Below, in pieces: positions 15,316 to 51,366 of a stretch of 64,000 bases of DNA. The stretch's first letter is position 1; each line of letters begins with the position of its first letter. Both the position numbers and the translations under genes were made by a program. The notes under the pieces were generated by a model, which searched no databases, was not told the origin of the DNA, and saw only the letters and a program-made list of their open reading frames with translations. The DNA comes from Falsiruegeria mediterranea M17. GTDB taxonomy: Bacteria > Pseudomonadota > Alphaproteobacteria > Rhodobacterales > Rhodobacteraceae. The stretch lies in contig NZ_ONZG01000001.1 of NCBI RefSeq assembly GCF_900302455.1, positions 124,001-188,000 of the forward strand. The letters are read 5' to 3'.

Positions 15316-15503
15316 CTCTCCCGCCCGTCGATCAGACATCAAAGATGCCCTCCTCCCGTTGGGCCGGGCCTCGCTGCGCTCGGCGGTTGGGATTCATGGT
15401 AAAACAGATGCCCCAAACAAGACCGCGCCTGGCAACGCCCAGGGCACGGCCCAAGGCCGTTAGCGGGGCTGACGAAGTCAGGATCGCGCGGGTGCGGGAG
15501 CGC
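15316..15503 (+). repeat. Dispersed structured repeat R1
   Basis: This element lies in the convergent gap between the UbiH-type gene and the Trm112 gene. Module A (15318-15390) holds CTCCCGCCCGTCGATC, a small hairpin GACATC/GATGCC, CTCCTCCCGTTGGGCCGGGC and CCTCGCTGCGCTCGG. Module B (15421-15503) holds a CCTGGC-AAC-GCCCAGG hairpin, AAGGCCGTTAGCGG and GTCAGGATCGC. Both modules recur in R3 with changed hairpin sequences. There is no open reading frame. Confidence 0.75.
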
Positions 15504-15522
15504 CACCGGAGTCGCAGCACCC

Positions 15523-15708
15523 TCAGTCGAGTTCGCGCGCCTCGTCCTGCAACATAACCGGGATACCGTTGCGGATAGGATAGGCCAGGCCCGCAGATTT
15601 CGAGATCAGCTCTTGCCGCTCAGCATCATATTCCAGCGTTGTCTGGCTCATCGGGCAGACCAGCACTTCAAGCATGCGGCGGTCAAACGCCTGGTTCTGT
15701 TCGTTCAC
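15523..15708 (-). CDS. Trm112-family small protein
   Basis: A 61-residue protein beginning with GTG ([20 protein letters not shown]). The segment [20 protein letters not shown] is the Trm112/YcaR hallmark. Eukaryotic Trm112 activates several methyltransferases; the bacterial proteins are tiny and mostly uncharacterised. Only one cysteine (CPMSQ) remains, so a zinc site is unlikely. The start codon shares a GTGA with the stop of the LON-domain gene upstream, so the two are translationally coupled. Confidence 0.88.
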
Positions 15709-16349
15709 TGTAGTGTTTCCTCATTCCCATCTCCTCCCCGCAGGGCAAATTCGATCAGTGTCACCAGCGTCTCGCGCCGTGTGGTCAAACAAGGTGCCTC
15801 AAGTAGCGCCTGCTTTTCCTCGGGGTCGAAATCCAGCAGCATGGACAGGGAATTCACGAGCAATTCGTCATCCGCGTCCTTGAGCGTTTCCCAATCTGTA
15901 GACAGATCCCGCGCCGAAAAGAATCGGTGCAACAGGTCCAAGAATTCAGAACGATCAAAACGGCCGGCGGCCTCGCTGCGCCCCAGGTCGCGATCAAACC
16001 CGTTCCAGCACACCTGACAGCGGCGGTAGGGCGTGAACCCTTCGATCTCGCTCTTGACCCGGAAGCGCGATACGCCGCTCAGCGTGATCATGTAGCGGCC
16101 ATCCTCTGTCTCGGAGAACTGCGTAACGCGACCCGCACAGCCAATCATGTGCAATTTATCCGAACATGCAGGGCTCGGGTTTGGTTGAACCATTCCGATC
16201 AGGCGCTGAGGCGTCTTCAGCGCATCGTTCAGCATCTGAAGATAGCGCGGCTCAAAGATATGAAGTGGCAGCCGGGACCGGGGCAACAAGAGCGCCCCAG
16301 GCAGTGGAAACACCGCGATCGTGTCCGGCAAATCGGCGGATTGCATCAT
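15705..16349 (-). CDS. LON peptidase substrate-binding-domain protein
   Basis: A 214-residue protein that is essentially one LON N-terminal (PUA-like) domain: [34 protein letters not shown] and [17 protein letters not shown]. It has no AAA+ or protease domain, so it is not Lon itself. Stand-alone LON-domain proteins are widespread and their role is poorly known. The gene overlaps the Trm112-family gene by four bases and follows the thioredoxin-TPR gene by 26 bases, suggesting one leftward operon of three genes. Confidence 0.88.
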
Positions 16350-16375
16350 ATACCGATACTAGCCCTGAATTATTT

Positions 16376-17293
16376 TTAGGCAAATATCATCGAGCTGAGC
16401 TTGCGCCGTCCGTTCAAAACCACCGGATCATTGGGCTTGAGCGCATCAAAGATCGTGAAGAGCTGTGTCTTGGCCGCGCCATCGTTCCACTCACGATCCC
16501 GGCGGAAGAGCTCCAACAATTGCGCGACCGCTTCCTCGACGTTGCCATTTGCATGCAGCGCCAGCGCCAGATCAAAACGGGCCTGGTGATTGTCTGGCTC
16601 TGCCTCGACATCCGCACTCAGCTCGGCCACAGGGCCAGCATCCGCAGCCTGTTTGGCCAGCTCGAGCTGCGCGTGCGCGGCTTCCAGCTCGGGCGTATCC
16701 GAGATTTCGGCTGGGGCACCATTCAGGATGGCCTCGGCCTGATCCAAATCGTCCAGCGTGATATGCGCGCGCACCAAGCCGCCGTATGCGGCGGCGTGAT
16801 TGGGATCTTCGCCGAGGATAGCGGCAAATGTCTGTGCCGCATCCACGGCCGCACCGCTGGTCAGCATCTCTTCGGCGGCTTCAACCGCTTCGTCCAATTG
16901 ACCACCAGGAGATTCACCGCCTGCCGCAGCAATGACACGGTCCACAAACGCCTTGATCTCTGACCCTGGCAGCGCGCCCTGAAACCCATCGACCGGCTGC
17001 CCCTTGAAGAACGCATAGACCGTCGGGATCGACTGGATCTGCAACTGGCCCGCGATCATCTGCGCCTCGTCGACGTTAATCTTGACCATCTTGACCGCGC
17101 CCTTGGCGGCAGTCACCGCCTCCTCGAGCATCGGACCAAGCGTCTTGCAGGGGCCGCACCAGGGGGCCCAGAAATCCACGATGACCGGCACCTCTTGCGA
17201 AGTTTCGACCACGTCAGCCATGAATGTGGCCTCAGAGCCGTCTTTGATCAGATCCGCGGCGGGGGCGCCGCCTGCGCCGTTGAGAATATCCAT
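16376..17293 (-). CDS. Thioredoxin-TPR protein (CnoX/YbbN family)
   Basis: A 305-residue cytoplasmic protein with an N-terminal thioredoxin domain (WCGPC at residues 45-49) and a C-terminal alpha-helical TPR-like region rich in Ala and Glu (about 145-300). E. coli CnoX of this architecture is a holdase that hands substrates to GroEL and DnaK. Here the active site keeps both cysteines, so it could also be redox-active. ATG at 17293 is chosen for GAGGCACGTC just before it; an in-frame ATG at 17314 has no binding site. It leads the LON/Trm112 operon. Confidence 0.87.
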   Translation of the reverse strand: MDILNGAGGAPAADLIKDGSEATFMADVVETSQEVPVIVDFWAPWCGPCKTLGPMLEEAVTAAKGAVKMVKINVDEAQMIAGQLQIQSIPTVYAFFKGQPVDGFQGALPGSEIKAFVDRVIAAAGGESPGGQLDEAVEAAEEMLTSGAAVDAAQTFAAILGEDPNHAAAYGGLVRAHITLDDLDQAEAILNGAPAEISDTPELEAAHAQLELAKQAADAGPVAELSADVEAEPDNHQARFDLALALHANGNVEEAVAQLLELFRRDREWNDGAAKTQLFTIFDALKPNDPVVLNGRRKLSSMIFA

Positions 17294-17395
17294 GACGTGC
17301 CTCTTTGGGTTCAAACTTGGCCTTATATGCCGTCAGTCGGGCCGGAAACCAAGTGGGGGAAGGCCTGTTTGCTCAAATTACAGGCGCTCTTTGTA

Positions 17396-18184
17396 TTAAA
17401 GATCGAAAGTCGCGAAAACCGGCGCATGATCGCTGGGTTTTTCCCAGCCGCGCGCGCCGCGCAAGACACGGCTGGAGTGGCCCGCGTTCGAGATATCCCC
17501 CGTGGCCCAGACGTGATCCAGACGCCGCCCCTTGTCGGCCGCGTCCCAGTCACGGGCGCGGTACGACCACCAAGAGTACAGGTTACCGTCAGGAATATCC
17601 TGTCGGGTTATGTCAACCCAACCGCCTGCATCCTGTGTTTCGGCGAGATGCTCAACCTCGATTGGGGTGTGACTGACCACCTTGAGCAGTTTCTTGTGGT
17701 CCCAAACGTCATCTTCGCGCGGGGCGATATTCAGATCGCCAACCAGGATTGATTTCTTCATCTGCTCAGATTTGAACCAATCCCGCATGTCAGTGAGATA
17801 GTCCAGCTTCTGCCCGAACTTCTCGTTTTTCTCCCGGTCGGGCACGTCGCCACCTGCTGGCACATAGAAGTTGTGAACCGTGACGCCATTTTCCAATGTC
17901 CCGGCGATATGGCGGGCATGGCCCAGGTCGGCAAAATCCTGACTGCCGGCCTCGACCATCGGGATGCGAGACAGAATGGCGACACCGTTGTAACCCTTTT
18001 GCCCGCGCGCAACCACATGCGTGTAACCAAGCGCGGCAAAACCCTCCATCGGGATCTTGTCCACCGGGCTTTTGCACTCTTGCAGGCACAGCACATCGGG
18101 CGCCTCTTCCTCGAGCAGTTTCAGCACGATCGGCTCGCGTAGACGCACCGAGTTTATGTTCCAAGTAGCCAGCGTAAAGGGCAT
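17396..18184 (-). CDS. xthA: Exodeoxyribonuclease III / AP endonuclease
   Basis: A 262-residue enzyme of base-excision repair that cuts abasic sites and removes 3' blocking groups. The exonuclease-endonuclease-phosphatase fold is complete: WNINSVRLR, CLQECK, GQKGYNGVAILSR, GDLNIAPREDDVWDH, DHVWAT and the catalytic SDHAPV near the C-terminus. It is a single gene. Across the 278-base upstream gap lies the divergent methyltransferase gene; that gap holds no other recognisable feature apart from the small duplication noted there. Confidence 0.93.
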   Translation of the reverse strand: MPFTLATWNINSVRLREPIVLKLLEEEAPDVLCLQECKSPVDKIPMEGFAALGYTHVVARGQKGYNGVAILSRIPMVEAGSQDFADLGHARHIAGTLENGVTVHNFYVPAGGDVPDREKNEKFGQKLDYLTDMRDWFKSEQMKKSILVGDLNIAPREDDVWDHKKLLKVVSHTPIEVEHLAETQDAGGWVDITRQDIPDGNLYSWWSYRARDWDAADKGRRLDHVWATGDISNAGHSSRVLRGARGWEKPSDHAPVFATFDL

Positions 18185-18430
18185 GAGATTGTTTCCTTTG
18201 TCCCAATAGACGCAAACTAACTCGGAGCGACACCAGGTACCATCCGAAATGATGCGCTATCGGGCTGTGTTTTTGAGACATCATAGAAGTGCCCGAAACC
18301 ACAGAGTACCGCTCAACATGCCCCGACTGAACACTGGATGTGCTGTGCGGCTTGCCGAAACACGCAGTGAGGTAAAGCAGATGGATACTTTGAAAAGAAG
18401 ACTGCTACCGATATGGGTAGATAGGTAAAA

Positions 18431-18482
18431 ATCTACATGGCTTCAATTTCCAAGGCATCTACATGGTCTCCAAGTTTCGAGC
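18431..18482 (+). repeat. 26-base tandem duplication at the methyltransferase start
   Basis: ATCTACATGG occurs at 18431 and again at 18457, and the 26-base units that begin there are largely alike (CTTCAATTTCCAAGGC against TCTCCAAGTTTCGAGC). The second copy carries the start codon of the methyltransferase gene. The first copy carries an out-of-frame ATG that leads quickly to a stop. Confidence 0.5.
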
Positions 18483-19272
18483 ATTGAAAGTCGCTACCGC
18501 GTTGAGAACCGTAGATCTGCTCATTCGATACACTCCACTCTTTGCCCACAAAGACGCTCCGCCCAATGTTCTAAACCTTGCTGGCGGCGGCGATTTCACA
18601 ACCGTTGGTGACGCAAACATCGCGGCGTTGGTTTCTCTGGCTGATCTGTCGGCTGGGGATGATACTCTTGAGATCGGATGCGGAATTGCGCGAAACGCGT
18701 ACGCCTTGCACCGAAAGTTCGGCGACAGCGTTACTTACGCAGGATTCGATGTCATGAAATTTTGCATCAGCTGGTCAAACAAGTACTTCGGTGCTGACAA
18801 ACCCAACTATTCCTTTCGTTATTCAAATATGACCAATTCAATGTATAACCCTTCGGGGGAAATCGCTCCTTCAGAGTACGATTTTGAGTACCCTGACGCG
18901 TCTTTTGACCTGGTGTTCGCAACGTCAGTTTTTACGCACATGCAAGAGCCGGACTTTTACCACTTTGTGAATGAAGCTCTGCGAGTTCTCAGGCCAAATG
19001 GTCGTTTCTACTTCACGGCATTTCTATGGGACGACGATGCAGAGCGCGCGACAAAAAGCGGAGAAGCCGCTTTTTCCTTTAAGTACCAAGCACAGGATTC
19101 ACGACTTGATAACAGGGAGGTACCTGATGCAGCCGTCGCTCATTCACGCAGCAAGCTTTTGGCGCACCTCGACACTCTGGGGGGCCAACCTCCTTTGATC
19201 ATAAACGGAGGTTGGAGGCGTAAGATCAACAAGCAGTTTCAAGACTGCGTTCTGATACGAAAAGCACAGTAA
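18463..19272 (+). CDS. Class I SAM-dependent methyltransferase
   Basis: A 269-residue protein with the SAM-binding glycine motif LEIGCGIARNAYAL near residue 71 and the downstream motifs SFDLVFATSVFTHM and EALRVLRPNGRFYFTAF of the methyltransferase_11/25 fold. The substrate is unknown; relatives act on sugars, lipids or small molecules. The coding sequence is visibly more A+T-rich than its neighbours and has no operon partner, which hints at horizontal transfer. AAGG lies seven bases before the ATG. Confidence 0.82.
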   Translation: MVSKFRALKVATALRTVDLLIRYTPLFAHKDAPPNVLNLAGGGDFTTVGDANIAALVSLADLSAGDDTLEIGCGIARNAYALHRKFGDSVTYAGFDVMKFCISWSNKYFGADKPNYSFRYSNMTNSMYNPSGEIAPSEYDFEYPDASFDLVFATSVFTHMQEPDFYHFVNEALRVLRPNGRFYFTAFLWDDDAERATKSGEAAFSFKYQAQDSRLDNREVPDAAVAHSRSKLLAHLDTLGGQPPLIINGGWRRKINKQFQDCVLIRKAQ

Positions 19273-19430
19273 GTTATTTCGAAGTTCCCTTCTCTGGCCC
19301 AATAGCAAACAAGATACCCGACGCCGCGATACGCGAATGAACCGAACAGCTAAGGTGAAAGTATCGCCATCAGCCCGCCCAGACAGAATGCGCACTGGGA
19401 AGTGCACCATAAGAAACAGTCTGGCGTTGT

Positions 19431-19751
19431 TTAATTCTTGCGCTCAGCCCTGGCTTGTCGCATCGCACCGCCGGTGCCGGTAATCCGCAAGTTTTTACCG
19501 TTGTCCAGCAATTCGACGTCCGCTTTTTCCAACTCGCCAGCCCAACCATGTTTAGTGCGTTCCAGTGCAGTGGTTTCCGCACCATCGCTCAAACGGCTCC
19601 ACACCATTTCGGTGCAATCGGCATTCACAGTGAAATCGCCGTAAACACCGTGCTCGCTGAAGGCGTAATCACCCGAGGCCCACGGGCAGGCAAAAGCAGC
19701 ACCAGAAAGCGTCAAGGCGCCAACAAAAGTAATCGTCGAAAAGAGTCTCAT
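19431..19751 (-). CDS. Small secreted protein of unknown function
   Basis: A 106-residue protein with a clear Sec signal peptide (MRLFSTITFVGALTLSGAAF, predicted cleavage after AFA near residue 21). The mature part of about 85 residues contains two cysteines, at the new N-terminus (ACPW) and in NADCTEMVW, which could form a disulfide. I do not recognise a named family. The gene is monocistronic and lies downstream of the CenR-like gene's terminator. Confidence 0.65.
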   Translation of the reverse strand: MRLFSTITFVGALTLSGAAFACPWASGDYAFSEHGVYGDFTVNADCTEMVWSRLSDGAETTALERTKHGWAGELEKADVELLDNGKNLRITGTGGAMRQARAERKN

Positions 19752-19829
19752 GGGGGTATCCAGTGTTGTGAAATTCAGATGCTCAAAAGATAGCGCAGAA
19801 TTTCAAATCGTCACAGCACCCCACCGGAC

Positions 19830-19857
19830 AAAAAAAAAGACCGGGCACAAGGCCCGG
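19830..19857 (-). terminator. Rho-independent terminator of the CenR-like gene
   Basis: Read on the minus strand, CCGGGC-CTTGT-GCCCGG is followed at once by TC and a run of nine T. It lies 100 bases past the stop of the response-regulator gene and is the clearest intrinsic terminator in this part of the window. Confidence 0.85.
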
Positions 19858-19956
19858 CCCAGTCCAACAGGGAGGTACATGTCATAACCCGGACATGTGC
19901 GGGATAGTGCGACCCTAAAGATGCAGCGCAGGTGCTGCTTTGATCTGGGTCAATAC

Positions 19957-20643: not shown

Positions 20644-20806
20644 CGTGGCGCCCTCCTAATTCCGTGCCCTACACTTGAGACCGATAAACGCATTCGACAA
20701 GATTTACTGCAATCGTCTCACGCCCTCGTGTCTATCGCAGGGTAATTGTTTCACATTCCTTACAATTGAGGATAGGAAGAGCCGCGAACGTTTTAGGGTA
20801 ACCTCA

Positions 20807-23044: not shown

Positions 23045-23091
23045 GGAATTCCTCGATCAGCGTTTGCCGCAGGAAAACACCATGTTGCGGC

Positions 23092-23122
23092 AAAAGAAAA
23101 GGGCAGGTCCGAAGACCCGCCC
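23092..23122 (-). terminator. Rho-independent terminator of the porin gene
   Basis: On the minus strand, GGGCGGGTC-TTCG-GACCTGCCC forms a nine-pair stem with a stable TTCG loop and one wobble, followed by TTTTCTTTT. It lies 30 bases past the porin stop, between the porin and yggS genes. Confidence 0.85.
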
Positions 23123-23151
23123 AAATTCGATACCGTCAAGCGGTGTACAGC

Positions 23152-29196: not shown

Positions 29197-29793
29197 ATGT
29201 ACAAAGTCTATGGTCGCCTTCAAAGCCGCGCCTCGCGGGTTCTGTGGCTGCTCGAAGAGCTCGGGCAAGAATACGAATTCATCGACGTTGGCCCACATGA
29301 TCCACAAGTGATGGCGCTGAACGGTACCGGCAAGATCCCAGTTCTGGTCGACGGCGATCACGTGATCTCGGACAGTTCGGCAATCATGACCTACCTGGCC
29401 GACAAACACGGCGCCTTTACCTATCCGGCCGGCACACCCGTGCGCGCGCAACAGGATTCCCTGTTTCACGCGCTGGTCGACGAGTTCGACGCGCTGCTTT
29501 GGACCGCCACCCGCCACATGGGTATCCTGCCCGAAGACAAACGGGTTCCGGCAATCTACGAGAGCTTGAAATGGGAGTTTGAAAACAGCGTAGACCGTCT
29601 GAGCAAGCGGTTCCAGGGGCCGTTCCTGCAAGGCGACAAGATCACGATTGCCGACATCCTGTGCGCCCATTGCATGAGCTGGGCCCGTGGGATTGAATTT
29701 CCGGTGAACGCGGACAACCTGCGTGCTTACGGCAAAGAGATGCGCAGCCGCGAGGCGGCACAGCGCATGGGTGCCTTGGCCAAAAAAGCCTGA
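29197..29793 (+). CDS. Glutathione S-transferase family protein
   Basis: A 198-residue cytosolic GST-fold protein. The thioredoxin-like N-terminal domain shows YGRLQSRASRVLWLLEELG and the glutathione-contact motif GKIPVLVDGD followed by ISDSSAIMTYLAD; the all-helical C-terminal domain contains GPFLQGDKITIADILCAHC. The substrate cannot be inferred. The gene stands alone, 84 bases after holA, and its 3' gap holds repeat R2. Confidence 0.9.
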   Translation: MYKVYGRLQSRASRVLWLLEELGQEYEFIDVGPHDPQVMALNGTGKIPVLVDGDHVISDSSAIMTYLADKHGAFTYPAGTPVRAQQDSLFHALVDEFDALLWTATRHMGILPEDKRVPAIYESLKWEFENSVDRLSKRFQGPFLQGDKITIADILCAHCMSWARGIEFPVNADNLRAYGKEMRSREAAQRMGALAKKA

Positions 29794-29855
29794 GGCCACA
29801 ACTGGAAACAGCGGTCTGGACGACCCCGATTTCACCGCCAGCGTTCTGCGGTGTC

Positions 29856-29933
29856 GCGCCGCGCGTCAGCGCGGCGCCCGGCCCAACGGGAGGAGGTGCC
29901 TCCCATGGGGCATTGACGACGGGCGGGAGCGCT
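29856..29933 (-). repeat. Dispersed structured repeat R2
   Basis: This copy lies in the convergent gap between the GST gene and the flavoprotein gene. On the + strand it reads: a perfect nine-pair hairpin GCGCCGCGC-GTCA-GCGCGGCGC (29856-29877), CCGGCCCAAC, GGGAGGAGG (29888-29896), a small TGCCTC/GGGGCA hairpin, then GACGACGGGCGGGAGCGCTT. The last 20 bases are identical to R3 on the opposite strand. Orientation is given by the CCTCCTCCC strand. Confidence 0.78.
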
Positions 29934-29939
29934 TCTGGA

Positions 29940-31115
29940 TCAGGTCACATACTGCGTCGCAGCGCGCCCGGCCCACCGCCCTGTGGCCAGACAGGCCGTC
30001 AGCAGATACCCCCCTGTCGGCGCTTCCCAATCCAACATCTCCCCGGCGCAGAATACGCCCGGCAGTTGTTTCAGCATCAGATCCGCATCCAGTTCCGCTT
30101 GCGGCACGCCGCCCGCTGTCGAGATCGCCTCGTCCATCGGACGCAAGCCCGCGTGCTGCACTGGCAGTCCTTTGATCAGCCTCGCCAAGGCCACGGGATC
30201 ACCCGGCAAAGGCCGCCCGAATTCCATCAAAAGCCCCGTGCGCACCGGACCCAGCCTCAACACTTTCCTCAGGTGGTTCGACAAGCTCGACTTGCCGCGA
30301 GAGCGTGACAGCCGTTTCGCCACGTCAGCGGCGCTCACATCCGGCATTAAGTCAATGTGCAATGCCTCGCCTTCGCGCACCGTCTTACAAATCGCATAGA
30401 CACCGCCGCCTTCCAGCCCCCGTGCCGATATCACCGCCTCGCCGCGCGTCATCAAATCCCCTGCAGACCAAGCCACGCCTTTGATCGGTTGCCCAAACAA
30501 GTCCCGCATATGCTCCGACCAGTTCACCAGCAGCCCCGCATTGGCGGGTTTGAAAGGCGCAGGCGACACACCGCGATCTGCCAGAACCTCTGCCCAGCCG
30601 CCGTCCGCACCTAACCGCGACCAACTGGCCCCGCCCATGGCCAGGACCGACACGTCGGCCTTCAGCGCGACCTCGCCCTGCTCCGTAGTGAACACAGGCT
30701 GACCCTCTCGCCACCCGATCCAACGATATCGGGTCCGGACCTCTACCCCCAACGCCTCCAACCGGGCCAACCATGACCGCAACAAGGGCGAAGCCTTCAT
30801 GACGGTAGGAAACACCCGCCCGGACGAGCCGACAAACAGCTCCTGTCCCAGCTCTCGCGCCCAATCCTGCACAGCCTTGGCGTCGAACTCGGCAATTATC
30901 GGTCGCAGCCAATCGGCCGCCTCGTCATAAGCTCCCATCAATGTCTCGAGCGGCTCATCCTTGGTCAGGTTCAACCCCGATTTCCCCGCCATCAGAAACT
31001 TGCGTGCAATCGACGGCTTGGCCTCGACTACGACCACCGACAGCCCTGCCTGGGCCAGTTCCTGAGCTGCCATCAGCCCGGCTGGCCCTGCCCCTATGAC
31101 AACCGCGCGCCTCAC
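29940..31115 (-). CDS. HI0933-like flavoprotein (TIGR03862 type)
   Basis: A 391-residue FAD protein. GTG start. The N-terminal dinucleotide-binding motif VVIGAGPAGLMAAQELA is followed by KFLMAGKSGLNLT, characteristic of the HI0933/YhiN family, and the C-terminal FAD motif is GVFCAGEMLDWEAPTGGYLL. Family members are putative oxidoreductases of unknown substrate. The start overlaps the mscS stop by GTGA, so it is translationally coupled to the channel gene. It ends seven bases from repeat R2. Confidence 0.88.
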   Translation of the reverse strand: MRRAVVIGAGPAGLMAAQELAQAGLSVVVVEAKPSIARKFLMAGKSGLNLTKDEPLETLMGAYDEAADWLRPIIAEFDAKAVQDWARELGQELFVGSSGRVFPTVMKASPLLRSWLARLEALGVEVRTRYRWIGWREGQPVFTTEQGEVALKADVSVLAMGGASWSRLGADGGWAEVLADRGVSPAPFKPANAGLLVNWSEHMRDLFGQPIKGVAWSAGDLMTRGEAVISARGLEGGGVYAICKTVREGEALHIDLMPDVSAADVAKRLSRSRGKSSLSNHLRKVLRLGPVRTGLLMEFGRPLPGDPVALARLIKGLPVQHAGLRPMDEAISTAGGVPQAELDADLMLKQLPGVFCAGEMLDWEAPTGGYLLTACLATGRWAGRAATQYVT

Positions 31116-40184: not shown

Positions 40185-41183
40185 ATGAGACCGCCCAATT
40201 TCTGGAACACAGCCCCCAACCAATTGGACTGGCGTGCGCGCCTGCTTCGCCCCTTGGGCGCGCTCTATGCCCGGGCAACCGCGCGACGTGTGGCCAAAGG
40301 AGCTCCGCAAGATCCCGGCGTTCCAGTCATCTGCGTCGGAAATCTGAACGCGGGTGGCACCGGCAAGACACCCACGGCGATCTGGGTGATCGAGCAATTG
40401 CGCAATGCGGGACATGAACCGCATGTGGTGAGCCGGGGTTATGGCGGTTCGCTTGAAGGGCCGGTTCGAGTTGAACCCGGCAAGCACGGGGCGGATCAGG
40501 TGGGGGACGAGCCATTGCTGCTGGCCGCCTTTGCAGAGGTCTGGGTCGCCAAGGATCGCGCAGCCGGGGCCAAGGCTGCGGCCGAATTTGGGGCAACGGT
40601 GATTGTGCTGGATGATGGGTTCCAGAACCCCAGTGTGAAAAAGGATCTTTCGATCATCGTGGTGGATGCAGCCCAGGGGTTCGGCAACGGGCTCTGCCTG
40701 CCGGCAGGCCCCTTGCGCGAACCGGTTGAGGCCGGTTTGACCCGCGCGGATTTGGTTTTGTCACTTGGCAAGGCAGAGGCGCAGGAGACATTCGCGAGCA
40801 CTTGGGGGCGCTCGCTCACCTTGCCCCATGTAACAGGTGAGGTTTGCCCGTTAAAAACCGGGATGGATTGGGCGGACACCCCGGTGCTTGCGTTTGCAGG
40901 TATAGGCAATCCAGCAAAGTTTTTTCGCACTCTGCGGGATCAGGGAGCTGACCTGCGCAGAGCGGAGCCATTGGATGACCACCAACCGCTCACACAAGCG
41001 CTGATGTCGCGGCTTGAAAGTGAAGCAAAGCTGTTGGGCGCGCAGATGGTGACGACCGAAAAGGATGCGGTGCGCTTGCCACCTGCCTTTCGCAGCAAGG
41101 TCATCACTCTACCGGTCCGGCTGCATCTCAAGGAAAGCGAACAGATGACCGATCTGATGTTGAGTGCAGCCCCCGCACCTTAG
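40185..41183 (+). CDS. lpxK: Tetraacyldisaccharide 4'-kinase
   Basis: A 332-residue inner-membrane-associated kinase that phosphorylates the 4' position of the lipid A precursor. The P-loop is [13 protein letters not shown] near residue 50, followed by VVSRGYGG, the catalytic [14 protein letters not shown] and the C-terminal [11 protein letters not shown], all LpxK signatures. It begins one base after the Kdo-transferase-like stop, so the two are one transcript in lipid A assembly. Its 3' gap holds repeat R3. Confidence 0.94.
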
Positions 41184-41200
41184 GGTACAAATCCACAAGC

Positions 41201-41439
41201 GCTCCCGCCCGTCGTCGATGTCCCTTCCGGGATACCTCCTCCCGTTGGGCCGGGCCTCGCTACGCTCGGCGGTCGGCACCATATTGCAACCGAAGTGCTT
41301 ACGAAGCCATGGGCGCGTCTGGTGGGTCGCTTTTGGTAAGATCATCTGCCTCAGGCGCGACCGCGCCGGGCAACGCCCGGCGCCCGGCTCAAGGCCGTTA
41401 GCGGTGCTGACGCAGTCAGGATCGCTCGGGCGCGGGAGC
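41201..41439 (+). repeat. Dispersed structured repeat R3 (fullest copy)
   Basis: This copy lies in the convergent gap between lpxK and the CoA-transferase gene. Module A (41201-41276): GCTCCCGCCCGTCGTCGATG, hairpin TCCC-TTCC-GGGA, CCTCCTCCC (41235-41243), GTTGGGCCGGGCCTCGC and TACGCTCGGCGG. Module B (41357-41439): perfect nine-pair hairpin GCGCCGGGC-AAC-GCCCGGCGC (41363-41383), AAGGCCGTTAGCGG, GTCAGGATCGCTCGGG and GCGGGAGC. Eighty bases of unique sequence separate the modules. Confidence 0.8.
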
Positions 41440-41458
41440 ACCCCCGGCCAACAACCGC

Positions 41459-42571
41459 TTAGCTATCCTCGCCTAACTTTGGCGCAGAACGGTGCAGTGC
41501 CAATTCAGCGTCTGAGAAGCGAAACGGTGCGCGAACACCCGGAACGCCGTCCAACTCGATCTGCATCCCACGCGCCACGATCTGGGGGTCTGCCATGACC
41601 TCGTCCAGCGTGTTGATCGGGCCCGCTGGCACGCCCTGAGCCTCGCAAGCGGCCAATAGATCCGCCTTGCTTCGCTGCGCCGTTGCTCCGTTCAGGCGCG
41701 CGATCATGACCCGCCGATTGGCGATGCGGTCCTTGTTGCGCAGGAACTCTGGCGCTTCGGCCATATCCTCAAGCTCCAAGATCTTGCACAACCGTTGATA
41801 CTGCCGGTCGTTGCCAGTCGCGATGATGATGTGCCCATCGGCGCAGTCAAACACCTGATACGGGGTCAGGTTGACGTGGGCATTGCCCATCCGTTCAGGC
41901 GCCTTTCCCGTGGTCAGGTAGTTCAGCGCCTGATTGGCTGTGACGGCCACGGCGACGTCCAGCAACGCCATGTCCACATGCTGCCCTCGTCCAGTTCGTT
42001 CACGCTGATGCAATGCCGCCAGAATTCCCGAAACCGCGTAGATGCCGGTGAAGATATCGGTGATCGCAACGCCTGACTTCTGCGGCTGACCGTCTGGTTC
42101 TCCGGTGATCGACATCAGCCCGGACATGCCTTGGATGATAAAATCATAGCCGGCACGGTGCGCATAAGGCCCGTCTTGACCGAACCCAGTGATCGAACAG
42201 TAAATCAAGCGCGGATTGACCTCTTTCAGGCTGTCATAGTCCAGCCCGTATTTGGCCAGCCCACCAACCTTGAAGTTCTCGATCAGGATATCTGCCTCCC
42301 GCACCATCTCGCGCACGCGCGCCTGGCCCTCGGGTGTCGAGAAATCCACCGTGACTGAAGCTTTGCCCCGGTTCGTCGAATGAAAGTAGGCCGCCGACTC
42401 GTCATCGTCTCGGGTAACGAATGGTGGTCCCCAAGCGCGGGTGTCGTCACCTGAGGGGGATTCAACCTTGATGACTTCGGCGCCCAGATCAGACAGCGTT
42501 TGACCGGCCCAGGGGCCGGCCAGGATACGCGCCAGTTCGATGACCTTTAGGCCCGCCAGCGGTGCCGTCAT
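41459..42571 (-). CDS. CaiB/BaiF family III CoA transferase
   Basis: A 370-residue type III CoA transferase, which moves CoA between carboxylic acids through an aspartyl intermediate. Signatures are LAGLKVIELARILAGPWAGQ, LGAEVIKVESPSGDDTR, FGQDGPYAHRAGYDFIIQGM and the acidic region GVAITDIFTGIYAV. The acids it uses cannot be read from sequence. Its ATG overlaps the dsbA-like stop by one base (TGATG), so it is the last gene of a dciA-dsbA-CoA transferase unit on the minus strand. Confidence 0.9.
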   Translation of the reverse strand: MTAPLAGLKVIELARILAGPWAGQTLSDLGAEVIKVESPSGDDTRAWGPPFVTRDDDESAAYFHSTNRGKASVTVDFSTPEGQARVREMVREADILIENFKVGGLAKYGLDYDSLKEVNPRLIYCSITGFGQDGPYAHRAGYDFIIQGMSGLMSITGEPDGQPQKSGVAITDIFTGIYAVSGILAALHQRERTGRGQHVDMALLDVAVAVTANQALNYLTTGKAPERMGNAHVNLTPYQVFDCADGHIIIATGNDRQYQRLCKILELEDMAEAPEFLRNKDRIANRRVMIARLNGATAQRSKADLLAACEAQGVPAGPINTLDEVMADPQIVARGMQIELDGVPGVRAPFRFSDAELALHRSAPKLGEDS

Positions 42572-43756: not shown

Positions 43757-43837
43757 CTGGTTTCCGACTCTGTTGGCGCTATTGTAGAGAGCACTCAGAC
43801 AGGTGCCAGTGAAACCGGTAGAGCAAGGGAAATTTGT

Positions 43838-44893: not shown

Positions 44894-44954
44894 CCGTCTG
44901 TGATCAAAGGAAAATCCGCGTTAGACTGCCCGCAAATCTGATGCGGAGCCCATC

Positions 44955-46088
44955 ATGATCGCACCTGAAACCCTCAACCGTTGGCAAAGCGCCCTGCCCT
45001 TCTGGATCTCATTCCTGCTGGTCCCTTTGGCCTGGTTTGCGGCCACAACCGGTGGCTGGAACCTGATCCTGGTGCCGCTGACGACATGGTGGGCCTTTGC
45101 GATCCTCGATCAGCTGACCGGGTTGAACACCGAAAACGCCGATCCACAGACGCCCGACGGGCAGTTGAACTGGTACATCCGGCTAACGCAGCTTTGGGTG
45201 CCGATACAATTCCTGACCCTCTTTGGCCTGATCTGGTACGCGACACACAGCGCCCATCTGAGCAGCCTGGAAAATGTGGCCCTGTTCTTTGGCGTCGGCG
45301 TCATCACCGGCACCATCGGCATCAACTACAGCCACGAGTTGATGCATCAAAAAAGCCGGGTCGAACGCACCCTGGGCGATATCCTGTTGGCCATGGTCCT
45401 TTACAGCCACTTCCGGTCCGAACATCTGCTGGTCCATCACCGCTATGTTGGCACCCCGCGTGATCCGGTGACCGCCCGTTACAACGAGGGGTTCCATCGG
45501 TTCTACCCCCGCGTCCTGATCCAATGCCTGCGCAGCGCGTTCAAGGCGGAAAAGGACATGCTCGCGCGGAAAGGCCTACCTTGGACAAGCCTGCGCAACC
45601 CCTTCTTCCGCTATTGGGCGATGCAAACCGGGATGATCCTGCTGGCTTTCATGCTGGGTGGTCTTGGTGGTGTCCTCTTGTTTCTGGTGCAAGCCGGGGT
45701 CGCAGTTTGGCAGTTGGAACTGGTCAACTACGTCGAACACTACGGTCTGACGCGCAAACACCTGGGCGATGGCAAATACGAGACGGTCCAGCCGCGCCAT
45801 TCCTGGAATGCAGCACATAAGGCGTCGAATTGGCTTCTGATCAATCTGCAGCGGCATTCAGACCACCACTACAAACCCGACCGCCGCTTTCCGCTGCTGC
45901 AAAACCACACAGAAGAAGACGCGCCGCAACTGCCCTATGGCTATCCCGTGATGACCGTGGCGGCGATGATCCCGCCGCTCTGGCGCCGCGTTATGAACCC
46001 GCGTGTTCGCAGTTGGCGGCGGCACTACTACCCCGAGATCACGGATTGGCTGGATTACAACAAAGCCCGCCACCCAATGCCCCGCTGA
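44955..46088 (+). CDS. alkB: AlkB-type alkane 1-monooxygenase
   Basis: A 377-residue inner-membrane di-iron hydroxylase with about six helices. The histidine boxes are complete: NYSHELMHQ, EHLLVHHRYVGTPRDP and LQRHSDHHYKPDRRFPLL, plus the HYG motif NYVEHYGL. It should oxidise medium- or long-chain n-alkanes to alcohols with rubredoxin as electron donor. No rubredoxin or rubredoxin reductase gene is adjacent, so the partner lies elsewhere. Alkane use is common in marine roseobacters. Repeat R4 follows. Confidence 0.94.
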   Translation: MIAPETLNRWQSALPFWISFLLVPLAWFAATTGGWNLILVPLTTWWAFAILDQLTGLNTENADPQTPDGQLNWYIRLTQLWVPIQFLTLFGLIWYATHSAHLSSLENVALFFGVGVITGTIGINYSHELMHQKSRVERTLGDILLAMVLYSHFRSEHLLVHHRYVGTPRDPVTARYNEGFHRFYPRVLIQCLRSAFKAEKDMLARKGLPWTSLRNPFFRYWAMQTGMILLAFMLGGLGGVLLFLVQAGVAVWQLELVNYVEHYGLTRKHLGDGKYETVQPRHSWNAAHKASNWLLINLQRHSDHHYKPDRRFPLLQNHTEEDAPQLPYGYPVMTVAAMIPPLWRRVMNPRVRSWRRHYYPEITDWLDYNKARHPMPR

Positions 46089-46103
46089 AAAGGGAATGCG
46101 GCC

Positions 46104-46176
46104 GCAGCGCACCGCAGGTGCGCTGCCCGGCCCAACAAGAGGCGACGCCGCAGGTGTCAACGATGGGCGGGAGCAG
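46104..46176 (-). repeat. Dispersed structured repeat R4 (degenerate core)
   Basis: This copy lies in the convergent gap between alkB and the cyclase gene. On the + strand: a perfect ten-pair hairpin GCAGCGCACC-GCA-GGTGCGCTGC (46104-46126), CCGGCCCAAC, the core CAAGAGGCG (where other copies read CGGGAGGAGG), a GACGCC/GGTGTC hairpin, then AACGATGGGCGGGAGC. It is in the same orientation as R2 and R5. The hairpin sequences are unlike R2's but sit at the same places. Confidence 0.72.
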
Positions 46177-46181
46177 CCCCG

Positions 46182-47564
46182 TCACAGGGTCCAGACATCC
46201 ATACGACCATCCACACCGCGCACGCCTTGGTCCGAGTGCAGCTCCAACCCTTCCAGACACTCCAACCCGGCGATGTGCTCGCGGATGACTTGATCCCGCA
46301 GATCGCTGCTGACCACCAGCTTGACGCCAAAGTCACGGGTCAGACCTTCAAGCTTCGCCGCCACGTTCACCGCATTGCCGATCACCGCGTACTCCAGCCG
46401 GTTCGCGCCAATATCACCCAAAAGGGCGGGCCCAAAATGCACCCCGATCCCGGCTTGAATTTCGGGCTCACCAGCGCGTTTGCGCTCCGCGTTCCATTGT
46501 TCCAGCACTTGCACCATCGACCGGGCACAGGCCATGGCATTGGATGCATCATGCTCCCCGGATATCGGTGTGCCAAAGGTCGCCATCAAACCGTCGCCCA
46601 GGTATTTGTCGAGCGTGCCATTGTGGCGGAACACTTCGGCCTCCATCCGCGAATGGAATCCGCGTAGCAGTTCGATCACCGAATAGGGGTCGCGGTCGGC
46701 AGCAAACTTGGTGAAGCCCACTATGTCGATAAACAGAACCGCGATGTTTTCGTTACGCACTTGCTTTAGTGGTTCGTCGTTCTGGCTCAGCTGGTCCACC
46801 ACATTGGGCGAGAAGTACCGCGACAAGTTCGCTCGCTCGCGCTCCAGACTTGCATTGCTCAATAGCAGTCGGTTGAAGCGCCGGACAGAAAACGCCAATG
46901 TCACCGCCACGATCATGAACACCACCGCCTCTTGAATACGAAGGCTGGGCATCACGCTGTCGGGGTTCATGAATTCGGCCACATCCGGATATCTCGCAAA
47001 GGCCTGTGTCACTTGATCCGTCAGCCCCGGAATCGGCGTGGCAAACCACCAAAGCGCAATCCAGCCCAGCGTCCACATTCCCGCCGTCCAAGTTCCAATC
47101 GCGATCACTGTGCGCCATGAATAAGCCAGCGTGCCACCAGCCAGGATCAAGAAGAAGTACTGAAAATTGCCAAACTGATACTGCATCGCCAAGGGGCGCA
47201 CATCTTCGCTGAAGGGGTTGGGTATCAGCATCCCCAACGTCATGATCAGCAAATCCATGAACAGCAAAAACAGCTCGAGGCTCGACTGCCCAACCCGACC
47301 TGCACGGCGGATGAACCATCCGTTCAGGGCCACCAAGGCAAGAATGAAGTGATAATAGACCACGTCCCAAGCTGGGTTTATGAAAACCAGGAACACCGCA
47401 ATGATCGCCATCGCGATCCAACGGGCCCGCACGGCCAACTCCAGCCCTTCGCGTTTGTGGTTCTCCAGAACCGCTTGCGTGTATTCGTTCACCTCTTCGG
47501 GAACGTCTGGCTGGGTGAAGAAAAACCTTTCGCGGCGCGGTGACGGGGCGGCGGTTTCGGTCAT
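46182..47564 (-). CDS. Membrane-anchored class III adenylate/guanylate cyclase
   Basis: A 460-residue protein. Five to six N-terminal helices (about residues 45-230) are followed by a class III cyclase domain (about 265-450): metal Asp in VLFIDIVGFT, LDKYLGDGLMATFG with the second Asp, and LEYAVIGNAVNVAAKLEG. It should make cAMP (or cGMP) in response to a membrane signal. The usual D at the base-specifying position before YT is changed to LEYAVIG, so nucleotide preference is unsure. It is a single gene that converges on alkB. Confidence 0.87.
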   Translation of the reverse strand: MTETAAPSPRRERFFFTQPDVPEEVNEYTQAVLENHKREGLELAVRARWIAMAIIAVFLVFINPAWDVVYYHFILALVALNGWFIRRAGRVGQSSLELFLLFMDLLIMTLGMLIPNPFSEDVRPLAMQYQFGNFQYFFLILAGGTLAYSWRTVIAIGTWTAGMWTLGWIALWWFATPIPGLTDQVTQAFARYPDVAEFMNPDSVMPSLRIQEAVVFMIVAVTLAFSVRRFNRLLLSNASLERERANLSRYFSPNVVDQLSQNDEPLKQVRNENIAVLFIDIVGFTKFAADRDPYSVIELLRGFHSRMEAEVFRHNGTLDKYLGDGLMATFGTPISGEHDASNAMACARSMVQVLEQWNAERKRAGEPEIQAGIGVHFGPALLGDIGANRLEYAVIGNAVNVAAKLEGLTRDFGVKLVVSSDLRDQVIREHIAGLECLEGLELHSDQGVRGVDGRMDVWTL

Positions 47565-47630
47565 GACATGTTTCCCTCGTGTCCGGGACAGAGATAGGAA
47601 GGCAACCTAACGCCCGAAACCCCCTGCGAC

Positions 47631-47662
47631 AAAAAGAAAAAACCCCGCCGATCTCGGCGGGG
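47631..47662 (-). terminator. Rho-independent terminator of ccrM
   Basis: CCCCGCCGA (47643-47651) and TCGGCGGGG (47654-47662) form a perfect nine-pair stem. Read on the minus strand it is followed by TTTTTTCTTTTT. It lies 62 bases past the ccrM stop. Confidence 0.9.
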
Positions 47663-47723
47663 CAAGGTGTAGTGCCATGTGTCAGGCCACAGGCACCGGC
47701 GGTATTCTTGATCTATTGTTGGA

Positions 47724-48921
<1,198 letters not shown>

Positions 48922-48934
48922 ATGAGGTTATGAT

Positions 48935-49552
48935 TTACTCTTGATACAAGATATTGTGTACCGGTTTGAACGAACGTCTATGATGTGGGGTCACGCCAAG
49001 GTTTAGAAGCGCATCGCGGTGCTTTTTTGACGGATATCCCGCGTTGGTTTCCCATCCATAACCGGGATGCTGTTGCGCCAAATCCACCATGACACGATCT
49101 CGACATATTTTGGCCACAATTGAAGCCGCCGCAATGGACACGGATCGCCCGTCGCCCTTGACCACAGCCTCGGATCGAGTCCGCAGGCCCTGGGGAATCA
49201 GATTTCCATCAATCAGCAGATAATCTGGCGGCGGATTCAGCCCCGACACCGCTCGCTCCATCGCCAGATGCGAAGCTTTGAGGATGTTGATTCGATCAAT
49301 TTCTTCGACGGTGGCATGGGCGATGGACACCTCGGCCTGCGCATGGATTGCAGTCTCTAACACTTCGCGTTTCTTGGCCGTCAGCTTTTTGGAGTCATTC
49401 AACCCCTCAGGGATGTCACCGGGGTTCAGTATCACCGCCGCCGCCGTCACCGGCCCGGCCAGCGGGCCACGCCCGACCTCATCCACACCCGCAATCCGCA
49501 GAAACCCTTGGGCGTGCAGTGCCCGTTCCATCTCATAATCTGGCTGTATCAT
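48935..49552 (-). CDS. rnhB: Ribonuclease HII
   Basis: A 205-residue RNase H-fold enzyme that removes ribonucleotides from DNA and RNA-DNA hybrids. The catalytic motif is IAGVDEVGRGPLAGPV, followed by LNDSKKLTAKKRE, the DGN loop LLIDGNLIPQGL, and IVAKICRDRVM. ATG at 49552 is preferred to an in-frame start at 49588, giving the usual length. It is upstream of ccrM on the same strand; the rnhB-ccrM order is common in Alphaproteobacteria. Confidence 0.93.
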   Translation of the reverse strand: MIQPDYEMERALHAQGFLRIAGVDEVGRGPLAGPVTAAAVILNPGDIPEGLNDSKKLTAKKREVLETAIHAQAEVSIAHATVEEIDRINILKASHLAMERAVSGLNPPPDYLLIDGNLIPQGLRTRSEAVVKGDGRSVSIAAASIVAKICRDRVMVDLAQQHPGYGWETNAGYPSKKHRDALLNLGVTPHHRRSFKPVHNILYQE

Positions 49553-49591
49553 GAGCACTGGCAAAGCCTGTCCATGCCGCAAACGCAAGAC

Positions 49592-49624
49592 AAAAGGAGG
49601 AGAGAGGTTGCCCTCCCTCCTCCT
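49592..49624 (-). terminator. Terminator downstream of the 150-residue secreted-protein gene
   Basis: AGGAGGAGAGAGG (49595-49607) pairs at 12 of 13 positions with CCTCCCTCCTCCT (49612-49624). On the minus strand it is followed by TTTTGTCTT. It sits between the rnhB start and the secreted-protein gene, so it insulates rnhB-ccrM from upstream transcription. Confidence 0.75.
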
Positions 49625-49662
49625 GACGCCGTTTCCCGACGCTCTCCCTGCTCGACTTAGGT

Positions 49663-50115
49663 TCAGTATTGGTTGTGCAACACACGGTAGCCCTGTTGGC
49701 GCAGGCAGCGCGGCTCATAGGCTTGTTTGTTGCGTTTGCCGTTCCAGAAGGAGATGCGGCACATCTGCGGCAGGCTGTTTGCATGGCGATAATGCTTCTG
49801 CAAGCAGTTGGGTTTCAGCAAAGGCTGGTTGCCGGGATAACCGCGCATCTGTTTCAGACACTGCGATGGCAGGTCATACCGCGAAATGCGTGGCGGCAGC
49901 GGACGTGGGGTGACCGGCTGATAATGGTTGTGCTGGCGCGCTACCCGCTCACGCTTTTTCTTTTTGTCATAATGGTGCACGGCGGCGCCAAACAAAGCGA
50001 TGGCCGCCAGCCCGCCCAGGATCTTTTCTGCATCACCCGCCCGAGCAGGGGCGGCAGACAAACCGGTGATTGCAACGGCGGTGGCAACGATAAGTGCGAT
50101 AAACTTGCGGTGCAT
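49663..50115 (-). CDS. Secreted Cys/Tyr/Arg-rich protein of unknown function
   Basis: A 150-residue protein with a signal peptide (MHRKFIALIVATAVAITGLS, cleaved near ARA/GDA at about residue 26). A hydrophobic segment GGLAAIALFGAAVHHYD follows (about 34-50), then a basic KKKKRER stretch and a tail rich in proline, tyrosine and arginine with four cysteines (QCLKQ, NCLQKH, MCRISF, RCLRQQG). The cysteines suggest two disulfides. I do not recognise a family name, but proteins of this build recur in Rhodobacterales. GGAAATCACCT lies before the ATG. Confidence 0.7.
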   Translation of the reverse strand: MHRKFIALIVATAVAITGLSAAPARAGDAEKILGGLAAIALFGAAVHHYDKKKKRERVARQHNHYQPVTPRPLPPRISRYDLPSQCLKQMRGYPGNQPLLKPNCLQKHYRHANSLPQMCRISFWNGKRNKQAYEPRCLRQQGYRVLHNQY

Positions 50116-50217
50116 AGGTGATTTCCTTTCGAGGTCTTGAGGTGGCCCACAAGGTTGGGCGTCTTGGATGCCCCGACACTGGGCGCTCATCGCTCAGACA
50201 GGCAATATCGCCGCCTT

Positions 50218-50263
50218 GTTATCGAATAACTGGCCCCTCAAAGCCCTGTGGTTATTGAATAAC
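50218..50263 (+). promoter_or_regulatory. Paired 13-bp near-palindromes GTTATYGAATAAC
   Basis: GTTATCGAATAAC (50218-50230) and GTTATTGAATAAC (50251-50263) differ at one base and are spaced 33 bases apart, about three helical turns. They end 27 bases before the ATG of the small secreted-protein gene, so they overlap its expected promoter. They look like a cooperative operator; the binder could be the membrane winged-helix protein encoded just downstream. Confidence 0.5.
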
Positions 50264-50290
50264 CGCGCCCAAGCGCGCAGGATAAGAGCC

Positions 50291-50578
50291 ATGAAACAGA
50301 TCTTGAAAATCGTAGGACTGGCCGCCCTGATTGCAGCCTCTCCGGGCCTTGCTGCGGCTGACTGCTATGCCGATTACAAGGCCAAACAGGACAGCCCTTT
50401 GCGTCTGCACTATGGCGTGATCCAGGTCACGTCCTGTTCCGCGGGACAGGCCAGCACCGAGATTTCCGCACGGTTGCAGGCGGCTGGTTGGACCTTGCTG
50501 AACGTCATCTCGGTTTTCGGCCCCGAGGGCCTGCAGGAAAGGAAAGCGGATGCCGGACCCTACTATCTCCGTTTCTGA
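50291..50578 (+). CDS. Small secreted protein of unknown function
   Basis: A 95-residue protein with a signal peptide (MKQILKIVGLAALIAASPGL, cleaved after AAA near residue 23). The mature part of about 72 residues has two cysteines (ADCYADYKAKQ and VTSCSAGQA) and reads HYGVIQVTSCSAGQAST, then a short amphipathic helix and GWTLLNVISVFG. I recognise no family. Its last 29 bases overlap the start of the membrane winged-helix gene, so the two are one transcript and probably linked in function. Confidence 0.7.
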   Translation: MKQILKIVGLAALIAASPGLAAADCYADYKAKQDSPLRLHYGVIQVTSCSAGQASTEISARLQAAGWTLLNVISVFGPEGLQERKADAGPYYLRF

Positions 50579-51251
50579 CACGCGCCGGTCCGGCACACGG
50601 CTTGTCGGGATTGGGATTGCTGCAATTGTCGTCATCCTCGCGACCGCAGCCGTCTTTTTGATCCTGACCCTGCCCGACGCCAACGCGTTCAACGCACGGG
50701 TGGAGCAGGTGTTCATCGAAAACGACCTGACCACCCAGGCCGAAATCAAACTGCTCGAGATCCTGGCGCAATCCGGCACGGCCTTTGCCGACACGCTGAC
50801 CAGTTATCGCATGGTGATCTTTGTGCTGCTGGTCTTTGCCAGCGCGATGATGATCGCCGCCCTGGCGTTTCTGGTGATGCTGGTCACCATGAACCGCCGC
50901 ATGGCCCAGATCGAGCGATCGGGCATTCAGGTCACGTCGCTGCTGATCAGCCGCGAAGAGAACACCGTCTATCTCAACAACATGGATTTCAAACTGACCC
51001 CAGCCGCGATCGAAACACTATCCGTCTTGGCCGAGGCGCGCATGGATGATGACGTGCTTTCAGGATCTCAGATCGAGGCGATTATTTCGGGCAAGGACGC
51101 GTCCGACTGCGAAGAGGCAGCAGGCGCGACCCGGATCAAACGGCTGCGCGACACGTTGGGCAATCAAATGGTGAGCGAGTTGCTGGTCAAGAACATCGCC
51201 CGGCGAGGCTATATGTTGGCCATTGAAAAGGACGTGATCCAGATGGTTTGA
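50550..51251 (+). CDS. Membrane protein with C-terminal winged-helix domain
   Basis: A 233-residue protein. Helix 1 lies at about residues 17-41, a periplasmic loop of about 40 residues follows, helix 2 lies at about 86-112, and a cytoplasmic C-terminal part runs from about 125. That part resembles an OmpR-type winged helix: NTVYLNNMDFKLTPAAIETL, then ATRIKRLRDTLG and ARRGYMLAI at the wing. The order is the reverse of ToxR/CadC, whose DNA-binding domain is N-terminal. It may be a one-component membrane regulator sensing the small secreted protein or an envelope signal. No named family is recognised. Confidence 0.6.
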   Translation: MPDPTISVSDTRRSGTRLVGIGIAAIVVILATAAVFLILTLPDANAFNARVEQVFIENDLTTQAEIKLLEILAQSGTAFADTLTSYRMVIFVLLVFASAMMIAALAFLVMLVTMNRRMAQIERSGIQVTSLLISREENTVYLNNMDFKLTPAAIETLSVLAEARMDDDVLSGSQIEAIISGKDASDCEEAAGATRIKRLRDTLGNQMVSELLVKNIARRGYMLAIEKDVIQMV

Positions 51252-51280
51252 CGGCATGGGCCGTTGCATCACGCGCCAAC

Positions 51281-51366
51281 TGCCGAGCGTAGCGAGGCGC
51301 ATGATTTCTTTCTGCCCAACGGGAGGAGGTGTTTCGTCAGAAACATCGACGACCGGCGGGAGCACC
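51281..51366 (-). repeat. Dispersed structured repeat R5
   Basis: This copy lies in the convergent gap between the membrane winged-helix gene and the Cys-rich secreted gene. On the + strand: TGCCGAGCGTAGCGAGGC, CCCAACGGGAGGAGGTG (GGGAGGAGG at 51321-51329), perfect hairpin GTTTC-GTCA-GAAAC (51331-51344), then ATCGACGACCGGCGGGAGC. It has the same orientation as R2 and R4. The GAGCGTAGCGAGG part matches R3 in reverse complement. Confidence 0.75.

Follow-up and report, generated by a model that had tools for sequence, protein, structure and literature searches.

A dispersed intergenic element with a covarying two-hairpin fold, found preferentially between convergent genes of Falsiruegeria mediterranea M17

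To our knowledge, it is poorly understood how two convergent genes of a bacterium bring their overlapping messages to an end; in our scan, a simple hairpin with a U-run behind it was present at only 96 of the 490 gene 3' ends in gaps of 60 bp or longer. The closest described systems are the repetitive extragenic palindromic (REP) sequences and the bacterial interspersed mosaic elements (BIMEs). Within the GTAG/CGTC-tagged REP families, copies in convergent gaps lie at most 20 bp from the ends of open reading frames (ORFs), and the CGTC families are frequent in alphaproteobacteria with no transposase link, as described in the passages available from PMC3733652, a paper from which the words Rhodobacter, Roseobacter and Ruegeria are absent. 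E. coli REPs situated at most 15 nt from a stop codon lower translation (work cited in the available part of PMC12306157). Here we describe an intergenic element with two hairpins from a 64,000-nucleotide stretch of Falsiruegeria mediterranea M17 (the window, C11:124001-188000 of the 5.28 Mb genome in 49 contigs). The five copies of the window, R1 to R5, are members of one dispersed family that has at least 146 copies in the M17 genome.

The five copies were first pointed out in a sequence-only reading of the window, and their positions and sequences agree with our direct reading, as do the blocks they were said to share: CCCAACGGGAGGAGG is exact in four of them (R1, R2, R3 and R5) and GACGGGCGGGAGC is present in all five, each with 0-1 mismatch. 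Loose matches to these blocks, counted in the window only, are in modest excess (7 vs. a shuffle mean of 2.5 for CCCAACGGGAGGAGG, 12 vs. 3.9 for GACGGGCGGGAGC). The family is larger than that reading had noted, since covariance model R1, seeded with 31 copies, gave 146 matches at E<=0.1 in the M17 genome, a lower bound because 150 candidates were scored. At E<=0.001 the M17 genome has 138 matches and the three congeners 129, 140 and 128, i.e. 128-140 family copies per congener. The exact 17-mer GGCCCAACGGGAGGAGG occurs 45 times genome-wide, as opposed to 0 occurrences of a reversed control.

The unit is built of a variable hairpin (hp1), the segment CCGGCCCAACGGGAGGAGG, a second variable hairpin (hp2) and the segment GACGACGGGCGGGAG. 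On the G-rich strand half-unit A begins with an hp1 ending in CCGGCC, which is followed by CCGGCCCAACGGGAGGAGG, by hp2 with its stem of about 6 bp and loop of 3-4 nt, by TCGACGACGGGCGGGAG and by a short tail that loses its conservation about 13 nt past the start of GGGAG. Hp1 reaches a hairpin score of at least 5 in 113 of 132 copies (38 of 132 shuffles) with 36 different left arms; GNA triloops are frequent in these 113 hairpins (GCA 40, GAA 16, GTA 4), and tandem G·A is compatible with 49 of the 132 hp1 hairpins. The long copies consist of two similar half-units, A and B, arranged head-to-head, B ending in GCGGGAGC, which is similar to the end of A (homology of the two was judged by eye). 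Half-unit B is found upstream and head-to-head in 57 of 132 copies; sorted by rough patterns, the 5' halves comprise these 57 A+B copies, 25 of the type GTCC-TGC-GGAC, 13 of the TTCTGCGGTG type and 37 unsorted ones.

Three other structures were considered and rejected. A closing helix between the two ends of long copies shows no covariation, 1 of 54 being complementary in a 2-nt covariation test (shuffle mean 0.47), and the paired ends of a terminal-inverted-repeat element (miniature inverted-repeat transposable element, MITE) are not seen. A G-quadruplex was dismissed since, by reading the sequence, the G runs are lost in R4. Finally, GCCCAAC fits the RYYYAAC box of integron attC sites but the second box does not fit.

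The hairpin between the conserved segments differs from copy to copy and yet stays paired, as had been claimed for the five window copies, and the perfect stems of R2 and R4 are visible at the equivalent place. Over 133 distinct rows 98.7% of 755 hp2 cells are paired with 215 double-sided changes, a result equalled by 0 of 500 shuffles; note that this alignment was fitted to hp2, which tilts the pair count toward hp2, and that slid controls reached at most 68.8%. The same covariation is found in the 31 seed copies. An absence of excess compensatory changes would have spoken against the sequence-only reading, and the opposite was observed: double changes exceed those of the shuffles. The wobble cells of hp2 are G·U in 39 cases and A·C in 5, therefore it is the G-rich strand that keeps the fold, and the predicted RNA of this strand is the more stable one in 121 of 133 M17 copies and in 21 of 26 copies from four other genera.

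The fold extends below hp2. Mutual information is detected in the same register as hp2 at pair 12-43 (GC 115, AU 6, CG 2), pair 15-40 (GC 129, AU 2) and positions 17-38 (A·G 93, C·A 12, G-C 4). Among the 133 rows, G·A or A·G juxtapositions are found at 13-42 (G·A 126), 14-41 (A·G 129), 16-39 (G·A 103) and 17-38 (A·G 93), which may be sheared pairs. RNAalifold drew the lower helix again in the 26 copies from the four other genera, an alignment fitted to hp2 only, with covariation at model pairs 15-40 (GC, UA and AU in 17, 5 and 3 copies) and 10-45 (CG and AU in 23 and 3). As judged from these alignments the conserved flanks and hp2 form one predicted structure, the lower-helix covariation in other genera being the strongest evidence for it. 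Selection on structure, as the sequence-only reading had proposed, is supported by the covariation of hp2, by that of the lower helix and by the pairing at orthologous sites described below, where mismatches are few.

Orientation was classified for 132 of the 146 copies with two gene callers of our own, one using a codon model and the other a dicodon model, and both place 89 of the 132 between convergent genes. By the dicodon caller the remaining copies are 40 co-directional ones, in which the folding strand is antisense 22 times and sense 18 times, and 3 divergent ones, the codon-model caller giving 22 and 17 co-directional and 4 divergent ones; none of the 132 lies inside a called gene. Among gaps of at least 60 bp, 88 of 119 convergent, 40 of 263 co-directional and 3 of 131 divergent ones are occupied (Fisher test of convergent gaps against the rest, p 1.5e-39), the 88/119 occupancy being biased upward because the gap sample was centred on matches. 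In eight added stretches (160 kb) there are 11 convergent gaps, 0 with a counted copy and one with a match at E 0.4. In 111 of the 132 copies the match has its 3' edge turned towards the end of an opposing gene; the stop codon of that gene is a median of 14 nt away, and at most 30 nt away in 80 of these 111.

The convergent preference is strong but not absolute. The first description, that the element occurs only between convergent genes, is too narrow in view of the 40 co-directional and 3 divergent copies genome-wide, while the contrary possibility, that copies are equally common in other gaps, does not apply to the M17 genome. In the window itself all five copies do sit in tail-to-tail gaps: R1 to R4 are convergent by gene calls, and R5, which both callers had as co-directional, is convergent because of an 88-aa minus-strand ORF conserved in the three congeners (79.5-94% identity over 87-88 aa). 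The callers thus miss genes, one beside R5 and probably one beside C11:605922. The 26 matches of the four other genera comprise 13 convergent, 12 co-directional and 0 divergent ones and 1 inside a called gene, on a background of 16 convergent, 42 co-directional and 23 divergent gaps (gene calls based on small training sets), and the match edge is often at, or overlaps, the opposing stop.

Within the genus the sites are retained. The orthologous 64 kb of each of the three congeners contain five matches, at all five window sites. The R2 region is 80, 85 and 89% identical to the congeners, and its hp2 stem appears as CCCC/GGGG, UCCC/GGGG and UUCC/GGGA. In genome G063 the R1 site has another hp2 class, R3 has lost its middle, and R5 joins an A-type start to a B-type end and is matched on the other strand. 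Such a swap of hairpin class at a site that stays fixed would point to recombination among the copies. Retention of pairs is incomplete, as R3 of M17 contains an A·C mismatch. The same behaviour, i.e. hairpins changing within sites, is seen in eight orthologous pairs with Tropicibacter sp. R16_0, and Ruegeria marina and strain EL53 have one site each in common with M17.

Over 13 orthologous pairs the core identity is 0.917, compared to 0.907 for coding sequence and 0.844 for other intergenic sequence, which includes the rest of the element outside the core. An exact-15-mer scan gave, among the matches listed (80 of at least 113 stretches), 30 loci, 20 of which align to M17 stretches and 10 of which do not. 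By coordinates, 11 have the element at the M17 site (8 of the 9 Tropicibacter sp. R16_0 loci, plus Alg240-R139, Ruegeria marina and EL53), and in the other nine aligned loci (L072, L086, L104, L105, L107, L110, L113, L115, L123) the element is outside the alignment or absent in M17; this comparison favours shared sites because the M17 stretches were chosen around their own copies.

Table 1. Element copies and their flanking genes, in window positions, and genome positions of the near-identical subfamily
Feature	Position	Strand	Remarks
FAD_binding_3 gene, left of R1	14022..15284	+	gene calls, domain match
R1, long copy	15306..15505	-	48.6 bits
R1, half-unit A core	15306-15367	-	hp2 of GCATC class; half-unit B at 15505 end
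Trm112p-like gene (61 aa), right of R1	15523..15708	-	gene calls, domain match
Glutathione S-transferase N-terminal-domain gene, left of R2	29197..29793	+	gene calls, domain match
R2, short copy	29840..29941	+	78.8 bits; orthologues known; hp1 and half-unit A core 29878-29941; 5' half of TTCTGCGGTG type
HI0933-like gene, right of R2	29940..31073	-	gene calls, domain match
LpxK gene, left of R3	40185..41183	+	gene calls, domain match
R3, long copy	41190..41448	-	80.8 bits
R3, half-unit A core	41190-41253	-	half-unit B at 41448 end
CoA-transferase family III gene, right of R3	41459..42571	-	gene calls, domain match
Fatty acid desaturase gene, left of R4	44955..46088	+	gene calls, domain match
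R4, short, divergent copy	46104..46185	+	36.7 bits; hp1 with 10-bp stem; core 46127-46185; hp2 GACGCC/GGTGTC
Adenylate/guanylate cyclase catalytic-domain gene, right of R4	46182..47564	-	gene calls, domain match
Gene left of R5	50550..51251	+	weak Trans_reg_C match, under curated cut-off
R5, short copy	51281..51374	+	78.4 bits; hp1, aberrant linker, half-unit A core 51311-51374
Small ORF (88 aa), right of R5	51396..51662	-	missed by both gene callers; conserved in three congeners
5'-half subfamily, 94-96% identical	C22:444300, C25:42348, C22:186494, C11:613326, C48:182689, C31:154965, C31:199994		seven M17 copies

We tentatively prefer, at slightly less than an even chance, to see in these copies a REP/BIME-like, largely vertically inherited structured family with a new kind of unit, placed at overlapping mRNA 3' ends, where we infer its mechanism to operate. 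The unit folds on the GGGAGGAGG strand into hp1 followed by a long, irregular tandem-G·A hairpin with hp2 as its cap. Where two genes converge, each mRNA would cross the element toward the stop codon of the other gene, and a folded half-unit would stand on each strand at the distal end of the overlapping 3' untranslated regions, long copies offering one half-unit for each direction. What the data show is the family itself, its covarying fold, the strand on which that fold is kept, its location and the retention of sites within the genus. Beyond this, the RNA hairpin might stop 3'-to-5' exonucleases, and perhaps RNA polymerase, and both mRNAs would end within the gap, in the manner of the REP/BIME hairpins of E. 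coli although the unit is a different one. The likeliest mechanism seems to be that overlapping 3' ends of mRNAs are formed or protected. It is possible, though rather unlikely, that the family represents a new class of structured RNA, i.e. a tandem-G·A double hairpin serving lineage-wide as a bidirectional 3'-end device for convergent pairs, with fixed sites within a genus and hairpins that are compensatorily rewritten, exchanged as modules and read by a putative dedicated protein.

Several observations weigh against a role at mRNA 3' ends. Firstly, matches in the other genera are convergent in only 13 of 26 cases. Secondly, in 22 of 132 copies the gaps are co-directional and the folding strand is antisense to both neighbours, so that ordinary mRNAs would not carry the fold, and, between convergent genes, the one that ends closest to the 3' edge of the core transcribes the C-rich strand first. 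Thirdly, convergent gaps show no clear shortage of U-tract terminators where the element is present (23 of 88) relative to gaps that lack it (12 of 32, and 4 of 10 from stretches free of the element). Finally, intact orthologous convergent gaps of other genera are without the element in 6 of 6 cases (five at the R3 site, one at the R4 site), one of them having a simple perfect hairpin instead, and therefore the role is dispensable or replaceable. Taken with the five sites kept in congeners, these six empty gaps mean that a site is stable inside the genus but can be gained or lost from one genus to another. Separately, a second short, repeat-like palindrome, CCCGCCGGAGG, preceded by AAATA and terminator-like when read from the opposite strand, was seen in gaps beside or replacing the element in L237, L238 and L240 (G015) and in L257 (G005).

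Alternatively, the copies could be what is left of a mobile repeat of the REP or MITE type that was not autonomous and was spread by a putative enzyme recognising the single-stranded hairpin; convergent gaps would then simply be the places where an insertion is least harmful. We consider this explanation distinctly less than probable but worth serious attention. The copies are dispersed and the distribution is patchy: the element is present in at least 12 of 61 family genomes (E<=0.001) and at least 34 of 244 genomes of the order (E<=1e-5), which belong to 14 of the 101 genera, counts that are floors because 86 candidates were scored in the family survey and 21 per genome in the order survey. 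The 15-mer was found, among the matches listed, in Tropicibacter, Tropicimonas, Leisingera, Ruegeria, Phaeobacter and others, in a scan that also hit many unrelated organisms by chance. Seven M17 copies, all of one 5'-half subfamily, share 94-96% identity over 128-139 bp, so that this subfamily is probably young and recently spread, and the orthologous gaps of other genera are empty as noted. Plasmid records searched with R2 gave three partial matches (two in Tritonibacter mobilis, one in Ruegeria sp. TM1040), and phage records searched with R3 gave no match. On the other hand, the Y1 transposase domain PF01797 has 0 matches in the M17 genome and is found in 2 of 12 carriers vs. 4 of 49 non-carriers among the 61 family genomes, so that a link to REP-associated tyrosine transposases (RAYTs) is unsupported. 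Moreover, 5 of 5 sites are kept in the three congeners, the best long copies of M17 are only 81-87% alike, and the core is as conserved as coding sequence.

An improbable alternative is that the element acts at the DNA level, as a single-stranded or cruciform hairpin or as a protein site that relieves supercoiling between convergent genes, where supercoiling is expected to build up. The common GNA triloops of hp1 agree with such a role, as do the tandem G·A pairs, which are stable in DNA hairpins too, and the antisense co-directional copies would be no obstacle to it. The strand asymmetry of wobbles is common to DNA and RNA and does not discriminate between them. It is quite improbable that the C-rich strand is the active one, as a Rho-loading or anti-Shine-Dalgarno-like segment just past the stop codon: this strand (CUCCCGCCC..., CCUCCUCCC) does begin at a median of 14 nt from the stop of its own gene in 111 of 132 copies, but the pairing of the G-rich strand would be left unexplained. 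An independently transcribed small-RNA family would suit the conserved RNA-like fold, but it is very improbable, given at least 146 copies that often fill the space from one stop codon to the next and no match to a small RNA of Rfam. Origin-to-terminus polarity was rejected, as single contigs hold copies on both strands.

Here one family stands at many convergent ends and retains its sites from species to species. Its covariation is strong enough for breaking and restoring stems at natural sites, and in a REP-like family without a RAYT both site stability and module exchange can be traced across species.

A few other features of the window deserve mention. The 88-aa ORF beside R5, which is under the usual ORF cut-off, has a signal-peptide-like start and several cysteines. 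Two proteins with a cyclase catalytic domain are encoded about 4 kb apart, one adjoining R4 (Table 1) and the other, at 51808-53352, adjoining R5; the latter additionally has a DUF427 domain. The small RNA SorX (RF02784) was matched in full length at 19833-19905 (-) with 92.7 bits. An open frame of 719 aa at 60820-62979 (+) was accepted by neither gene caller and is possibly of foreign composition. Outside the window, the Ruegeria small RNA Cis52_sRNA (RF02647) lies at L240 7896-8001, where the end of the stretch cuts the match.

The Rfam 15 covariance models gave no credible match to the element at gathering cut-offs, for R3 also at E<=10, and no description of the family was found in Rfam or the literature searched, including the available passages of PMC4809877. 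It is useful to compare its general features with those of the known systems. Like the GTAG/CGTC-tagged REP families, as described in the part of PMC3733652 available, it has many dispersed extragenic copies, head-to-head dimers, an uneven distribution and G·T pairs in stems, and it prefers convergent or unidirectional gaps. The same passages describe the unit of those families as a single palindrome of 20-40 bp with an unpaired GTAG or CGTC tag, whereas in ours two hairpins, conserved purine segments and tandem G·A make up a half-unit of about 80 nt, and the sites are fixed across congeners. The consensus has neither the 20-40 bp unit nor the tag of a GTAG REP. The CGTC REPs have a stem of 8-9 bp with A-T as its first two pairs and a CCA tail, whereas hp2 has about 6 bp and other first pairs, so that the CGTC near hp2 on the C-rich strand is a resemblance only. 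The hairpins of E. coli REPs are likewise near upstream stop codons (PMC12306157, in the part available), but sequence and unit differ. The intergenic stem-loops at convergent ends described in the accessible part of PMC1590033 share with our element the preference for convergent gaps and the stretch just past the stop, even though they are a general statistical class and ours is one covarying family.

Lastly, the C-rich strand has CCUCCUCCC in common with the CcsR or 'Cuckoo' small RNAs. These carry the motif in hairpin loops, whereas here it flanks hp2 on the non-folding strand, and the Rfam models gave no match. Dispersed extragenic copies, a paired palindromic unit, its inverted combination and a 3'-end location that avoids divergent gaps are what broadly characterises REP/BIME elements, and all of them are found here. 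Of the three roles offered by the sequence-only reading, a BIME/REP-like element thus fits best and bidirectional termination is possible, while a multi-copy small RNA is disfavoured by the copy number and by Rfam. Because the family shares traits with the GTAG/CGTC REPs but differs from them in its unit and in the stability of its sites, and because no RAYT-type transposase was found, we place it among REP/BIME-like elements, broadly defined, rather than among the GTAG/CGTC REPs.

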